From Sinorhizobium americanum (GTDB lineage: Bacteria > Pseudomonadota > Alphaproteobacteria > Rhizobiales > Rhizobiaceae), in contig NZ_LNQC01000080.1 in assembly GCF_001651855.1 (NCBI RefSeq), positions 124,001 through 188,000 on the forward strand: a stretch of 64,000 nt of DNA. The letters run 5' to 3'. How positions within the stretch are numbered: position 1 is the stretch's first letter; the number at the start of each line of letters is the position of its first letter. A program made the position numbers and the translations under genes. Of the stretch, positions 5,652 through 55,428 are shown piece by piece. The notes beneath the pieces were generated by a model. It was not told the DNA's origin. It saw only the letters and a program-made list of their open reading frames with translations, and did no database searches.

Positions 5652-6053
5652 GGCTGTATTCCCCGATCCATTAGACTCCACAACTGTGGAGGACAAAGGG
5701 CATACGCGCGCTTGCACTGGAACCAGCCGGTGGAGACCCCGGAACCATGCATGCGCTCGATGCGCGAACGATGAATCGAAGCCCGCAAAGGCTAAGATTC
5801 GGCTTTGTCTGCCATGGATTGGAGGGAATAACCCAACCGCACTTCCGGCAATGAAGGTGTGCCTCTTCAGTAACCCCGGCTGTTGGAGAGCCGGCAGACA
5901 CCAGAAAGGCCCGCACCGTCGTTGCTTCAAGATGTCCTCGCATTTCCCGGTTGGCCGGAATAGCGACTGGAGGGGTTAGTTCCAGGTACCTTACCGAGAT
6001 CCTCACCTAATCGAGGGTCGGCGGACACCCACAGGCACGTGCGACTTTGGGCA
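5652..6053 (-). ncRNA. structured mRNA leader of the decarboxylase, speF-motif candidate
   Basis: The 605 bp between the decarboxylase and the divergent LysR gene has no convincing gene. On the minus strand it holds a conserved-looking structured core: GGTGT (5902-5898) pairs with ACACC (5860-5856), enclosing CCGGCT/AGCCGG (5894-5889 with 5881-5876). The Rfam speF element is known upstream of ornithine decarboxylase genes in alphaproteobacteria, and position, length and target fit. I have not matched it against the covariance model, so the class is inferred. Confidence 0.5.
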
Positions 6054-34148: not shown

Positions 34149-34294
34149 CTTGCTACTTCGGCGTTACTCCTTAAATACTGCGGGCTAGTCTGGCGCGACG
34201 ACGCGCCGCGGAGGCAAAGTGTGCGCGGTTTCCGCCGGCCTTTCGCTCCGTTTTGTGGAACCGATCACGCTCGTCAGAAAGGAACAGTTCGCCG

Positions 34295-35050
34295 ATGCAG
34301 GAAATCCTCACGCTCGCTCAAAGCCCGGAGGCTTGGGTCGCTCTCATTACGCTGATTGTGATGGAAGTGGTCCTCGGCATCGACAACCTGATCTTCATCT
34401 CCATCCTCACCAACAAATTGCCTGCCGAGAACCGGGTCAGCGCCCGGCGCATCGGCATCGGCCTCGCGCTTATCATGCGACTTGGGCTGCTCGGCACGAT
34501 CGCCTGGATCGTGCAACTCACCGAGCCGGTCTTCGAGGCCTTTGGCCATGGCTTCTCCTGGAAGGACATGATCTTGATCGCCGGCGGCCTTTTTCTCGTC
34601 TGGAAGGCGACGAAGGAGATCCACCACAATGTCGATCCGAGCGACCATGACGAGGACTTCATCGCGAGCTCGGCGATCAACGGCTTCACGGCGGCGATCG
34701 GCCAGATCCTGCTGCTCGATCTCGTCTTTTCCGTCGACAGCATCATCACCGCCGTCGGCATGACCCCGCACCTGCCGATCATGGTCATCGCCGTCGTCGT
34801 CGCCGTGACGGTGATGCTGGTTGCAGCCAACCCGCTCGCCAACTTCATCGAACGGAACCCGACGATCGTCATGCTGGCGCTCGCCTTCCTGCTGATGATC
34901 GGCACGACGCTGATTGCCGAAGGCATGGGCTTCCACGTGCCGAAGGGTTATGTCTACGCCGCCATGGCCTTCTCGGCCCTGGTCGAAATCCTCAATATGA
35001 TCGCCCGCAACGCGCGCCTGAAGAAGCAGCAGGCCAGCAAGCTGCACTGA
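34295..35050 (+). CDS. TerC-family integral membrane protein
   Basis: 251 residues with about seven membrane segments. Start ATG at 34295 with AAAGGAAC upstream. Conserved acidic motifs '[15 protein letters not shown]' and '[18 protein letters not shown]' are in helices, as in TerC/YoaE proteins that handle Mn or tellurite stress. A C-terminal basic tail follows. The leader (34116-34294) shows no clear yybP-ykoY (Mn) riboswitch. Confidence 0.88.
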
Positions 35051-35082
35051 CTTTGCAATCGGCGAGGATGACGAAGATGACA

Positions 35083-35113
35083 AAGAGGCCCGCACCATTG
35101 GTGCGGGCCTCTT
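35083..35113. terminator. strong bidirectional terminator
   Basis: A 14-bp perfect stem: AAGAGGCCCGCACC (35083-35096) with GGTGCGGGCCTCTT (35100-35113), loop ATT. On the plus strand it ends terC. On the minus strand, followed by TTTG, it ends the structured RNA at 35114-35250. Confidence 0.85.
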
Positions 35114-35250
35114 GCTGCGGGAGGCGAGGATGCGGACTGGACAGGTCAAGAGCTCGTCTGCCGTTCCGTTGGCCACGGGAAGAAACCGGCAAAATTCCCG
35201 TGTTCTCCTGGTCTGTCGCGTCCGGTTGCCACAGTCCGCGTCCTCGCAGC
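35114..35250 (-). ncRNA. structured small RNA, 6S RNA candidate
   Basis: On the minus strand this 137-nt segment starts with GCTGCGAGG and folds into one long hairpin. The outer stem has 16 pairs, CAGTCCGCGTCCTCGC (35232-35247) with GCGAGGATGCGGACTG (35124-35139), one G-U. A large internal region follows, and an apical stem CACGGGAA (35174-35181) with TTCCCGTG (35195-35202). Closing stem, central bubble and apical loop match the plan of 6S RNA, which binds RNA polymerase. A promoter and a terminator frame it precisely. No protein frame is credible. The class is inferred; another rhizobial small RNA is possible. Confidence 0.55.
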
Positions 35251-35252
35251 GG

Positions 35253-35281
35253 ATAACGCAGCCACGCTGTTAGCGTTCCAA
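35253..35281 (-). promoter_or_regulatory. promoter of the 6S-like RNA
   Basis: On the minus strand TTGGAA (35281-35276), a 17-bp spacer, and CGTTAT (35258-35253). The predicted start at about 35246-35250 coincides with the first base of the long stem. Confidence 0.5.
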
Positions 35282-35494
35282 TCCTTGTTCGACGAGAGAG
35301 GCGACCGACAGCGCGACTTCCTCTTTCCGTTGACATCAAGGGCTTTCTATGGTCTCACCCCTGCCGACTGGAATTGCCCGCCGATACCGCTCAAACGGCA
35401 CCCTTGCGGGCCTTCCTTCCCATAAAATACGCGCCCGTCAGCTGGTAGGCACTCCGGCCAAGGGCTCAAGAGCACGTCAAGACGGGCAAAGACC
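35282..35494. other. gap before gltX
   Basis: I see no gene or clear structure in these 213 bp beyond the probable gltX promoter region. The start at 35495 has only weak ribosome-site similarity. Confidence 0.4.
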
Positions 35495-36952
35495 ATGGCA
35501 GATTCTGCAGTCCGGGTACGCATCGCACCCTCCCCCACCGGCGAACCGCATGTCGGCACCGCCTATATCGCGCTGTTCAACTATCTCTTTGCGAAGAAGC
35601 ACGGCGGCGAATTCATCCTGCGCATCGAGGATACCGACGCGACGCGCTCGACGCCGGAATTCGAGAAGAAGGTGCTCGATGCGCTGAAATGGTGCGGGCT
35701 CACATGGTCGGAAGGTCCGGATATCGGCGGCCCCCACGGCCCCTATCGCCAGAGCGACCGCAAGGATATCTACAAGCCCTATGTCGAGAAAATCGTCGAG
35801 AACGGCCACGGCTTCCGCTGCTTCTGCACGCCCGAGCGGCTGGAGAAGATGCGCGAGGCACAGCGCGCCGCCGGCAAGCCGCCGAAGTATGACGGCCTGT
35901 GCCTGAGCCTGTCGGCCGAGGAAGTCACCTCCCGCGTCGCCGCCGGCGAGCCGCATGTCGTGCGCATGAAGATCCCGACCGAGGGCTCCTGCAAGTTCCA
36001 CGACGGCGTCTATGGCGATGTCGATATCCCGTGGGATGCGGTCGACATGCAGGTGCTGCTCAAGGCCGACGGCATGCCGACCTATCATATGGCGAATGTC
36101 GTCGACGACCATATGATGAAGATCACCCATGTCGCGCGCGGCGAGGAGTGGCTCGCCTCGGTGCCGAAGCACATCCTGATCTATCAGTATCTCGGCCTCG
36201 AGCCGCCGAAGTTCATGCATCTGTCGCTAATGCGCAATGCCGACAAGTCGAAGCTGTCCAAGCGCAAGAACCCGACCTCGATCTCCTATTACACGGCGCT
36301 CGGCTATCTGCCGGAAGCGCTGATGAACTTCCTCGGCCTGTTCTTCATCCAGATCGCCGAGGGCGAAGAACTGCTGACGATCGAGGAACTGGCGCAAAAG
36401 TTCGATCCTGAAAACCTGTCGAAGGCCGGCGCGATTTTTGACATTCAGAAGCTCGACTGGCTGAACGCCCGCTGGATCCGCGAGAAGCTCTCGGAAGACG
36501 AGTTTGCCGCGCGGGTCTTCGCCTGGGCGTCCGAAAACGAACGTCTCAAGGAGGGCCTGAAGCTCTCGCAGTCGCGCATCTCGAAGCTCGGCGAGCTGCC
36601 GGATCTGGCCGCCTTCCTCTTCAAGTCCGATCTCGGCCTGCAGCCGGCCGCCTTTGCCGGCGTAAAGGCGACGCCTGAGGAGATGCTGGAGGTCCTGAAC
36701 ACCGTTCAGCCGGACCTCGAAAAGATCCTCGAATGGAACAAGGAATCGATCGAGGCGGAACTGCGCGCCAGCGCCGAGCGGATGGGCAAGAAGCTCAAGG
36801 CCGTCGTCTCGCCGCTCTTCGTCGCCATCTCCGGTTCGCAGCGTTCGCTGCCGCTCTTCGACTCGATGGAACTGCTCGGCCGCGCCGTCGTGCGCCAGCG
36901 GCTCAAGGTGGCGGCACAGGTGGTCGCCTCCATGGTTGGCAGCGGAAAGTAA
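35495..36952 (+). CDS. gltX: glutamyl-tRNA synthetase
   Basis: 485 residues. The class I HIGH motif appears as PSPTGEPHVGTA (residues 13-23), and the KMSKS-like motif is SKLSKRK near 250-256. 'RIEDTDATRS' follows the HIGH helix. It charges tRNA-Glu. It lies 11 bp before lysS and is probably co-transcribed. Confidence 0.94.
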   Translation: MADSAVRVRIAPSPTGEPHVGTAYIALFNYLFAKKHGGEFILRIEDTDATRSTPEFEKKVLDALKWCGLTWSEGPDIGGPHGPYRQSDRKDIYKPYVEKIVENGHGFRCFCTPERLEKMREAQRAAGKPPKYDGLCLSLSAEEVTSRVAAGEPHVVRMKIPTEGSCKFHDGVYGDVDIPWDAVDMQVLLKADGMPTYHMANVVDDHMMKITHVARGEEWLASVPKHILIYQYLGLEPPKFMHLSLMRNADKSKLSKRKNPTSISYYTALGYLPEALMNFLGLFFIQIAEGEELLTIEELAQKFDPENLSKAGAIFDIQKLDWLNARWIREKLSEDEFAARVFAWASENERLKEGLKLSQSRISKLGELPDLAAFLFKSDLGLQPAAFAGVKATPEEMLEVLNTVQPDLEKILEWNKESIEAELRASAERMGKKLKAVVSPLFVAISGSQRSLPLFDSMELLGRAVVRQRLKVAAQVVASMVGSGK

Positions 36953-42750: not shown

Positions 42751-44364
42751 ATGAAAGCCTTCGCCGAACTTCTCGGCCGCCTCGTTCTGACCCCCCAGCG
42801 GAACGCCAAGATACGGCTGCTCGCCGACTATTTCCGCAGCGCCCCCGATCCGAGCCGCGGCTATGCACTGGCGGCGATCGCCGGGACGCTTTCGCTCAAC
42901 ACGGTCAAACCGGCCTTGATCCGCGACCTCTTGCTCGAGCGCATGGACGACGTGCTGTTCCACTATTCCTACGACTATGTCGGCGATCTCGCCGAGACGG
43001 TGTCGCTGGCCTGGGAACCGCCGGCGGACGTCGTTCCTGAGGACATTCCGCTCGGTGAGGTCGTCGAACGGCTTCAGAGGGCGGGGCGTTCCGAGGTGCG
43101 CTCGCTAGTCCGCGACATGCTCGACCGGCTCGATACCGCCGGCCGTTTCGCCTTTCTGAAACTCGTCACCGGGGGTTTACGGATCGGCGTCTCGGCGCGG
43201 CTCGCTAAGCAGGCCCTCGCTGACTTGGGCGGCAAGGACATCGGCGAGATCGAGACCTTGTGGCACGGGCTGTCGCCGCCTTACGTGCCGCTCTTTCTGT
43301 GGCTTTCCGGCGAAGCGGAGATGCCCCTTCTCAGCACGCCGGCCGTCTTCCATTCCGTGATGCTCGCGACCCCGATCGGCGAGGGCGATCTGGATGGATT
43401 GGACCCTGCCGACTTCGCCGCCGAATGGAAATGGGACGGGATCCGCGTCCAGCTTGCCAATATCGGCGGCGTGCGGCGGCTCTATTCCCGCAGCGGCGAC
43501 GAGATATCTGGCGCTTTCCCGGAAATCATCGAGGCGGCCGACATTGCCGGAGTGATCGACGGCGAGTTGCTGGTCGGCGGAACGATGCGCACCAATCGCG
43601 CCACCGCCACATTCGGCGACCTGCAACAGCGCCTGAATAGAAAGACCGTCAACCGCAAGCTGCTCGAGGACTATCCCGCCTTTATTCGCGGTTACGACAT
43701 CCTCTTTTCGGGCGAACGCGACATGCGGCCCGAACCTTTCCAAGTCCGCCGCCAAGCCCTGGCGGCCTTGATCGAAACCGCTTCGCCACAGCACTTCGAC
43801 CTGTCGCCGCTTGTTCCCTTCTCGACCTGGGAGGAACTGGACCGGCTGCGCTCGGACCCACCGGATCCGGTCATCGAGGGGATCATGCTGAAGCGGCTCG
43901 ACTCGCCCTATCTGTCCGGGCGGATGAAGGGCCCGTGGTTCAAATGGAAGCGCGCGCCGTTCAACATCGACGCGGTGCTGATGTACGCCCAGCGCGGCCA
44001 CGGCAAGCGCTCGAGCTACTATTCGGATTTCACCTTCGGCGTCTGGACGGAGGCGGAAGGCGGCGCGGCGCTGGTTCCCGTCGGCAAGGCCTATTTCGGC
44101 TTCACAGATGCCGAGTTGGAGGTGCTCGACCGGTATGTGCGCGACAACACGGTCGAGCGGTTCGGCCCGGTGCGCGCGGTTCGCGCCGAACCGGAGGCCG
44201 GCTTTGTCGTGGAAGTGGCGTTCGAGGGCCTGAACCGCTCGACCCGCCACAAATCGGGCGTCGCCATGCGCTTCCCGCGCATCGCCCGGCTGAGACCGGA
44301 CAAGCTGCCGCGGGAGGCCGACAGGCTGGAGACACTGCAGGCGATGATCGGGATGAAAGGTTAG
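42751..44364 (+). CDS. ATP-dependent DNA ligase
   Basis: 537 residues. It has an N-terminal DNA-binding domain (about 1-190), a nucleotidyltransferase domain with the adenylation lysine in EWKWDGIRVQL (near residue 227), and a C-terminal OB fold. Motifs 'IDGELLVG' and 'EGIMLKRLDSPY' are ligase motifs III/IV. It lies 3 bp after the MBL exonuclease. This is the second kind of ligase in bacteria, besides NAD-dependent LigA, and is linked to repair. The helicase often found in the same cluster is not adjacent. Confidence 0.92.
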   Translation: MKAFAELLGRLVLTPQRNAKIRLLADYFRSAPDPSRGYALAAIAGTLSLNTVKPALIRDLLLERMDDVLFHYSYDYVGDLAETVSLAWEPPADVVPEDIPLGEVVERLQRAGRSEVRSLVRDMLDRLDTAGRFAFLKLVTGGLRIGVSARLAKQALADLGGKDIGEIETLWHGLSPPYVPLFLWLSGEAEMPLLSTPAVFHSVMLATPIGEGDLDGLDPADFAAEWKWDGIRVQLANIGGVRRLYSRSGDEISGAFPEIIEAADIAGVIDGELLVGGTMRTNRATATFGDLQQRLNRKTVNRKLLEDYPAFIRGYDILFSGERDMRPEPFQVRRQALAALIETASPQHFDLSPLVPFSTWEELDRLRSDPPDPVIEGIMLKRLDSPYLSGRMKGPWFKWKRAPFNIDAVLMYAQRGHGKRSSYYSDFTFGVWTEAEGGAALVPVGKAYFGFTDAELEVLDRYVRDNTVERFGPVRAVRAEPEAGFVVEVAFEGLNRSTRHKSGVAMRFPRIARLRPDKLPREADRLETLQAMIGMKG

Positions 44365-54186: not shown

Positions 54187-55428
54187 TCAGCTCTTGACCC
54201 AGGACCATTGCGTCACCGGCATGGCCGGACGCCAGCCCGTCATCGTGCCGACCGGCGCAGCGCGGGCGATATCGATGCGGATCAGCGAGCCGCCGAGCCG
54301 GGCGTGATGGGCAAGCAGCACCGCTTCCATTTCCGTCGTCACGGCGTTGGCGACCAGCCGGCCGCCGGAGGAAAGCGCGGCGATCGCCGCCTCCATGACG
54401 CCGGCATCGCTGCCGCCGCCGCCGATGAAGATCACGTCCGGACGGGTGAGCCCGCGAAGCGCTTCCGGCGCCTGCCCCTCGACCACCGTCAGGCCGGGCA
54501 CGCCGAAGCGGCCGGCGTTGCGGCCGATCCGCGCCGCCCGCTCGGGCGATGCTTCGATGGCGATCGCCCGCATCGCCGGATCCGCCAGCATCCATTCAAT
54601 GGCGATCGAGCCGGAGCCGGCACCGATGTCCCAGAGAAGCTCGCCCTTGCGCGGCGCCAGCGCCGAGAGCGTCAGCGCCCTGACCTCGCGCTTGGTGATC
54701 TGACCGTCATGCTCGAAAAGCGCATCGTCGAGCCCGCCGGCAAGCGGCAGGACGCGTGCCCCGCCACCCGCGACGATCTCGACCGCGCAGACGTTCAGGG
54801 CGGCGATGTTTTCCAGCGCGAAGCTCGCGGCAATATTCCGGGAGATGCGCTCGCGTTCGCCGCCAAGCGCTTCGAGAACGGTAAGCCGTGACTGACCGAA
54901 GCCGCTTTCGCTGAGCAGTTCGGCAAGCGCCCTGGGACCGTTCCCATCCGACGTCAGCGCCAGCACGCGGGCGCCCGGCTGCAGCTGCGGCCGGATGAGG
55001 TCGAGCGGGCGGCCGTGCAGCGAGATGGTTGCCACGTCCTGGAGCGGCCATCCGAGCCGCGAGGCTGCAAGGCTGAAGGCCGAAGGCGCGGGGATCGTCC
55101 GGATTTCGCTGGCATCGATACGGCGCGCCAGTGTGGCGCCCACGCCGTAGAGGAAGGGATCGCCGGAGGCGAGCACCACGACGGGACTGCCGCGCCTCGA
55201 AGCGATCGCCTCGACCGATTTCTCAAAGGGGCTTTGCCAGGCTTCGCTCTCGCCCTGGATCAGGCACGCCGCAAGCTCGATATGACGGACGCCGCCGAAG
55301 ACGACGGGGGCTGCTGCAATCAGCCGCTTGGCCTCGTCGCCGAGACCGGCTACACCATCTTCCCCGACCCCGATTACGGTCAACCAGGGAGCGACAATGG
55401 CCGAGCCGCTATTCGACATGTCAGCCAC
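54187..55428 (-). CDS. cobL: precorrin-6Y C5,15-methyltransferase (decarboxylating)
   Basis: 413 residues from the GTG at 55428 (GAGG upstream), the length I recall for CobL; the ATG at 55419 is an alternative. The N-terminal half is the C5 methyltransferase (CbiE-like), and the C-terminal half (about 250-413) is the CbiT-like C15 enzyme with 'LLWDIGAGSGSIAIEWML'. It adds two methyl groups and removes the acetate carboxyl. Its 5' end overlaps the divergent cobK start by about 30 bp. Confidence 0.92.
   Translation of the reverse strand: MADMSNSGSAIVAPWLTVIGVGEDGVAGLGDEAKRLIAAAPVVFGGVRHIELAACLIQGESEAWQSPFEKSVEAIASRRGSPVVVLASGDPFLYGVGATLARRIDASEIRTIPAPSAFSLAASRLGWPLQDVATISLHGRPLDLIRPQLQPGARVLALTSDGNGPRALAELLSESGFGQSRLTVLEALGGERERISRNIAASFALENIAALNVCAVEIVAGGGARVLPLAGGLDDALFEHDGQITKREVRALTLSALAPRKGELLWDIGAGSGSIAIEWMLADPAMRAIAIEASPERAARIGRNAGRFGVPGLTVVEGQAPEALRGLTRPDVIFIGGGGSDAGVMEAAIAALSSGGRLVANAVTTEMEAVLLAHHARLGGSLIRIDIARAAPVGTMTGWRPAMPVTQWSWVKS

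Follow-up and report, generated by a model that had tools for sequence, protein, structure and literature searches.

In Agrobacterium fabrum C58, the plasmid pAt gives rise to a small RNA, pAt_55271R, for which Lee et al. 2013 (PMC3738593) report a 5′ end at 55271 and a 3′ end at 55154 (118 nt by RNA-seq), a size of ~140 nt by Northern, and validation by RACE. The RPKM values (untreated) given there are 45 in log phase, 866 in stationary phase, 3597 in AB and 877 in AB with acetosyringone. In Rhizobium etli, PMC3892343 describes ReC64 as an EcfG-dependent non-coding RNA of 88 nt located downstream of phyR-tcrY, with a promoter of the form GGAAC-N16-CGTT, which is the EcfG consensus of this species. 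The Caulobacter RNA GsrN is characterised, in PMC5869019, by an exposed C-rich loop and by homologues that lie mostly near phyR-ecfG. In S. meliloti, PMC7143759 records SmelC601, a minus-strand RNA of 127 nt with an RpoE2 motif, and the 6S RNA of this species appears under the names SmelC667, sra56 and smrC22.

The RNA described here lies on the minus strand of the window, by which we mean the whole stretch of DNA analysed (64,000 nucleotides from Sinorhizobium americanum). It stands between two open reading frames that, judging by their sequences, we take to encode TerC and glutamyl-tRNA synthetase (Table 1). It shares with pAt_55271R its family, fold, kissing loops and an upstream GGAAC, but the pAt RNA is encoded just ahead of ligD, behind a poorer −10 element, whereas the window copy is convergent to terC and probably shares a terminator hairpin with it. 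ReC64 has a promoter of the type that we predict here but differs in locus and size, and GsrN is set apart by its description. SmelC601 may be the S. meliloti orthologue of the window RNA; if it is, the literature already gives the promoter class of one member.

Table 1 Features of the locus, in window coordinates
Feature	Position	Strand	Details
−35 element GGAAC	35275..35279	−	From sequence; EcfG (general stress sigma) type
−10 element CGTT	35255..35258	−	From sequence; 16-nt spacer after GGAAC
Predicted transcript, ~165 nt	35083..35247	−	Predicted from promoter position and stem foot
Conserved core	35134..35241	−	RF02496 positions 1-108; 106 bits
P1 closing stem	35124..35247	−	35247-35241 with 35130-35124; 35239-35232 with 35139-35132
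P2 small hairpin	35219..35231	−	35231-35230 with 35220-35219; loop joins kissing contact
Kissing contact	35184..35227	−	AACCGG (35227-35222) with CCGGTT (35189-35184)
P3 and P4	35140..35217	−	P3 35217-35213 with 35144-35140; P4 35208-35205 with 35152-35149
P5 apical stem	35174..35202	−	35202-35196 with 35180-35174
P6 hairpin	35160..35173	−	Loop AACGGAAC here, consensus AACGAAAC; conserved AG-CGAG stretch next
14-bp terminator-like hairpin, symmetrical	35083..35113	−	AAGAGGCCCGCACC-AAT-GGTGCGGGCCTCTT
terC-like membrane protein gene, convergent	34253..35050	+	ORF
gltX (glutamyl-tRNA synthetase), divergent	35495..36952	+	ORF

The window RNA belongs to the known rhizobial small-RNA family Atu_At1 (RF02496). 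An Rfam scan matched this model over its full length (E 1.7e-17), with a score well over the gathering cut-off of 60 bits. A sequence-only reading of the locus had instead proposed a 6S RNA and had named the 6S model, RF00013, as the check. That model gave no match at E ≤ 10 within 34700-35600 (901 bases) and was absent at the gathering threshold from the whole 64-kb window, while the single RF00013 match of the genome, seen in two scans, scored 75.1 bits on another contig, C64. The 6S identity was rejected on these grounds. The two RNAs are alike in being rod-like and structured, and an Atu_At1 homologue rises in stationary phase as 6S RNA does, but the central structure differs, as described below.

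That the minus strand encodes a structured non-coding RNA, as the same reading held, is borne out by its folding energy: a 168-nt stretch folds at −87.1 kcal/mol, compared to −60.65 ± 4.25 for dinucleotide shuffles (z −6.22, 0/200 as good). Homologues were collected as 149 copies with 146 distinct cores, comprising 33 linked to terC (among them L018, under the cut-off), 100 other strong copies and 16 more. The cores are 94-115 nt long, mostly 106-110, and their differences break the reading frame while the pairing persists, which makes a protein-coding reading unlikely, again as had been supposed. For an alignment, 17 of the 149 copies were excluded beforehand, namely 16 below the gathering score and a second copy at L079 just above it (60.9 bits); after removal of rows of at least 92% identity, 96 of the 132 strong cores were retained with 8 nt of flank on each side.

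Across these 96 homologues, 87.4% of the 4003 cells in 42 pairs hold standard pairs, compared to 73.6% in shuffled alignments and at most 49.3% when slid, and 36 of the 42 pairs, kissing pairs included, show two-sided changes. The stems therefore covary in relatives. Two-sided changes are seen in all 13 counted pairs of P1 (81.4% of cells paired, with the outer portion less conserved), in 7/7 pairs of P5, in three of the four pairs of P4 and in four of the six counted pairs of P3, although the sixth pair that Rfam draws in P3 is standard in just 21 homologues. P6 has 97.2% of its cells paired. P2 is the sole helix with no two-sided change at all (89.6% of cells paired), so that P2 itself is unsupported by covariation. 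The 16-bp closing stem of the sequence-only reading is recovered as the two runs of P1, and its apical stem CACGGGAA/TTCCCGTG is present on the minus strand. The central bubble that it pictured is not open: a small hairpin stands on either side, that on the 5′ side base-pairing through its loop with the apical loop, and the centre that is open in 6S RNA is filled by covarying P3, P4 and P6 together with this kissing contact. Mean conservation is 0.764 for unpaired and 0.756 for paired positions, and 17 of the 38 unpaired positions reach 90%. In the P6 loop and its flank, positions 72-75, 77, 83, 86, 87 and 89 show 91-99% identity. The window copy carries a G/A mismatch beside the P2 loop and a changed base in the P6 loop, which also differs in several other lineages.

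The kissing contact comprises 7 bp that join core positions 15-21, in the 5′ hairpin loop, to positions 52-58, in the apical loop, and is missing from the structure line of RF02496 in Rfam. In the 96 homologues, 97.6% of its cells are paired, with two-sided changes in six of the seven pairs (58 cells), and its covariation score is 0.267, compared to 0.095 ± 0.008 for shuffled alignments and at most 0.153 for slid ones. None of 500 shuffles matched the helix on four of five measures; on the remaining one, pair types, 5/500 did. We see C-G 69 times, G-C and U-A 8 times each and A-U 7 times at pair 17-56, and A-U 61 and G-C 28 times at pair 21-52. On a tree built without the kissing columns, pair 17-56 needs 19 joint changes and each of its sides alone 17, while pair 21-52 needs 12 joint changes and its sides 8 and 11. 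These joint and single-side counts indicate that both sides of each pair change together. Compensated variants are also found at the level of the order (CAACCGGCC with TTTTGCCGG, and CAACCAGA with TCTGGTT). The window copy forms six of the seven pairs and has an A-G mismatch at the other one (35221 with 35190), which 90 of the 96 homologues form.

The promoter elements of the sequence-only reading, TTGGAA (beginning at 35281) and CGTTAT (ending at 35253), are real and correctly placed upstream, but a sigma-70 reading of them was not sustained. A generic sigma-70 scan of 34950-35500 found 0 promoters, and that candidate was rejected. The elements read instead as the EcfG type GGAAC-N16-CGTT (35279-35255), at the distance expected of the EcfG/RpoE2 regulon (spacer 16 or 17): the predicted start near 35247 lies 8 nt past CGTT. 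Transcription likely begins at the base of the closing stem, as previously placed, to judge from promoter position and predicted fold. The motif alone is insignificant in the window (3 matches compared to 0.84 expected, a count of 3 being reached by 6/100 shuffles), so the case for the promoter is made by conservation across copies. GGAAC occurs 28-55 nt upstream of the core in 33/33 terC-linked copies and in 84 of the 100 other strong copies. Using a relaxed motif (GGAAC, spacer 15-18, NNTT), we find it upstream of all 33 terC-linked copies and of 82 of the 100 other strong copies, 18 lacking it; counting every copy not linked to terC, it is present in 89 of 116 and missing from 27; the background at random positions in the same loci is 24/2645. 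The −10 is kept as NNTT, mostly CGTT, CATT or GGTT. The strict motif (spacer 15-18) lies ≤75 nt upstream in 56 of the 149 copies, compared to 0.15 expected from mononucleotide shuffles. At the level of the order, 29 loci were read, 22 from other families and 7 from the own family, of which 5 repeat copies in the 149; the relaxed motif is present in 21 and missing in 8, and in other families alone it is present in 17/22. Four loci of one other family (L198 and L200-L202) carry RNA copies without an EcfG motif. The genome of the window contains two matches to NepR-type anti-sigma factors, NepR being a component of the general stress system. We infer from these sequences that transcription at the window locus would depend on EcfG. 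Family membership, fold, kissing contact and conservation of the promoter motif can be regarded as established by comparative sequence analysis.

The 14-bp hairpin that had been read as the terminator of the RNA is present, but it appears to be only partly the RNA's own. A strict terminator scan of 34950-35500 found 0, the hairpin failing the T-run rule. A T-run terminator belonging to the RNA was rejected for this reason and as a like hairpin stands in genomes that lack the RNA. Of the 149 copies, 33 are followed by a terC homologue in the opposite orientation, at a distance of up to 200 nt in 31 cases, and the gltX N-terminus adjoins terC in all 12 loci searched. At L161, TerC is 97.6% identical to that of the window over 251 residues and the intergenic stretch is 229 nt, compared to 447 nt in the window; the RNA and its promoter are both missing, while the hairpin GAGGCCCGCATTC...GAATGCGGGCCTC is intact. 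L164-L166 have a hairpin at the same place and no detectable RNA, and L162 and L163 hold diverged RNA copies (60.3 and 22.6 bits with a sequence profile). As the hairpin persists where the RNA is missing, it is probably terC's and probably common to the RNA and the convergent gene. The absence of the RNA and its promoter beside a near-identical TerC also indicates that the RNA is dispensable. At the window site, AAGAGG is found at both edges of the stretch missing from L161 (genome G021), which suggests that the RNA was lost there when a deletion joined two short direct repeats.

A search of 40 genomes detected RF02496 in 18, the window's own included. Within the genus, 17 of 24 genomes have a match, that of G003 being below the cut-off, and the other 7/24 have none. 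At least 104 of 297 genomes of the family, and at least 49 of 109 genera, carry it, some with two to five matches; this search scored 12 candidates per genome, making absences uncertain. A model built here, R1, was run against 297 genomes of the order and matched 38 at E ≤ 0.001; 29 of these belong to other families. The window's genome has no second convincing copy by this model: the next best match, at 44147-44253 (+), scores 17.9 bits (E 0.025 in a 71-kb search and 2.26 genome-wide) and is most likely due to chance. In a set of 72,556 plasmid records, BLAST with the homologue at L020 (201 bases) matched 202, of which 114 are from Agrobacterium, and BLAST with the window RNA matched 29. Three genomes (G216, G072 and G141) hold four to five diverged RF02496 matches each, some below the gathering score, and such paralogues may be divided in their roles.

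The genes behind the RNA are varied. Pfam was used to scan 181 candidate sense ORFs (92 + 89), and among the matches listed are LigD_N (3 + 1), a [2Fe-2S] domain (4), and DUF4112, DJ-1/PfpI, DUF6894 and BrkB (one each). The downstream ORFs include LigD at L056, a 2Fe-2S protein at L040, BrkB at L145 and DUF6894 at L148, the last two following RNA copies below the cut-off; L024, L028 and L113 were assigned to ligD by clustering with L056, and of ten short ORFs scanned, two gave matches. At L198, the RNA copy occupies a 3′-UTR position: it begins at the stop codon that closes a small ORF of secreted appearance, presumably with an SH3-like look.

One plasmid copy has published expression data. 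The pAt copy of A. fabrum C58 (L203, NC_003064.2), matched by RF02496 at 55165-55272 with 115.3 bits and preceded by GGAAC and a poor −10, coincides with pAt_55271R. The annotated ligD start lies 44 nt past the reported 3′ end, so that, despite its leader position, this copy is detected as an RNA in its own right. The rise of pAt_55271R with growth phase, in the values of PMC3738593, fits a stress-sigma promoter. The pAt copy (55110-55272) is directly upstream of ligD, and LigD domains are found in at least four candidate sense ORFs behind other copies; the RNA may be connected with the joining of DNA ends during stress.

We propose, with a probability of about 0.5, that the window encodes a stress-induced, tertiary-folded RNA that starts at an EcfG promoter, ends at a shared hairpin and acts in trans via a protein partner. 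RNA polymerase carrying EcfG (RpoE2 in Sinorhizobium) would initiate transcription at the base of the long closing stem. The product would then fold into a closed form made of this stem, two small hairpins, the apical hairpin and the loop-to-loop kissing contact, and would end at the hairpin held in common with convergent terC, both ends at the window locus being predicted. A free RNA of ~120-170 nt should accumulate in stress and stationary phase. We conjecture that the mostly unpaired, conserved AACGAAA loop of P6 and the AG-CGAG stretch would be shown to a protein partner, whose activity the RNA might alter during the general stress response. Since one fold is conserved whether a copy is a free RNA, precedes unrelated genes or follows a stop codon, action in trans by shape is most likely, and we hold trans action itself to be probable. 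Several observations weigh against the proposal: the copies that lack the relaxed motif, the poor −10 of the pAt copy on whose expression it draws, the genomes that do without the RNA, the mismatched kissing pair and changed P6 base of the window copy and, as regards a protein partner, the fact that unpaired positions are on average no better conserved than paired ones. A broader proposal, offered tentatively, is that Atu_At1 as a whole is a multi-copy, tertiary-folded general-stress effector that works as a ribonucleoprotein or by binding a ligand rather than by antisense pairing. On this view, the RNA travels with its promoter to unrelated positions on chromosomes and plasmids, at times as the leader of stress genes such as ligD.

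Base-pairing is the usual mode of action of stress sRNAs, and the main rival to a protein partner remains an EcfG-induced RNA that pairs with mRNAs through its P6 loop and the single-stranded stretch after it, as GsrN of Caulobacter does through a loop of its own. The general-stress sRNA GsrN would be the model, being described in PMC5869019 as a post-transcriptional regulator with listed mRNA interaction stretches, and the strong conservation of an exposed loop and flank suits mRNA pairing too. However, compensatory change has kept the entire three-dimensional fold, beyond the need of a seed on a scaffold, and the P6 loop differs in several lineages, the window's included, so that we consider this rival possible but somewhat doubtful. 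A cis-acting 5′ leader of stress genes, riboswitch-like or mRNA-stabilising, of which the window copy would be a stand-alone derivative, was attractive from single loci: a sense gene, ligD included, starts within 100 nt of 26 of the 100 strong copies not linked to terC, and the pAt type copy ends 44 nt before ligD. Over the 100 copies there is no orientation bias, either in the next called gene (sense 52, antisense 45, none 3) or within 100 nt (26 antisense genes to the 26 in sense), single calls of our home-made codon model being rough. This disfavours a general leader role, and a family-wide leader was rejected. The gene next to the window copy is moreover convergent, the downstream families are diverse, and the pAt copy was detected as a discrete short RNA in PMC3738593, all of which makes a leader improbable here.

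The remaining two readings fare worse. A decaying relic or mobile cassette with no present function would agree with the deletion-like absence in one near relative, the weak or missing copies in others, and the patchy, multi-copy spread across the family. Yet compensatory evolution is family-wide, the promoter is retained and the window copy has kept all but one of its kissing pairs, which leaves a relic very unlikely. A second, diverged 6S RNA binding RNA polymerase would have a like rod shape and length, and would agree with the stationary-phase accumulation given for the Agrobacterium homologue; set against the silence of RF00013 at E ≤ 10, the canonical 6S RNA elsewhere in the genome and a centre closed by hairpins and kissing contact, it is scarcely credible.

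In the literature searched, whose scope stops short of the Agrobacterium RNA survey of Wilms et al. 2012, we found no paper naming RF02496 or Atu_At1 and no function for the family, and, within the same scope, no passage that connects it with EcfG or mentions a contact between its loops. To the extent of these searches, and subject to the identity of SmelC601, we regard as new the family's promoter class, its kissing contact, the terminator held in common with terC and the wide range of genomic positions. The promoter class tells when RF02496 should act, namely in general stress and stationary phase, and the kissing contact offers a fold that could be broken and restored by loop swaps. Its presence in several families of the order, with up to five matches per genome, recommends it as a candidate for an RNA branch, so far unrecognised, of how plant-associated bacteria respond to general stress.

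Elsewhere in the window, at 5742-6052 (−), a match to the ar45 sRNA (RF02347, 171.6 bits) ends 8 nt before a match to the speF leader (RF00518, 130.3 bits) on the same strand. The two may form one transcript, or the sRNA may be derived from the leader.
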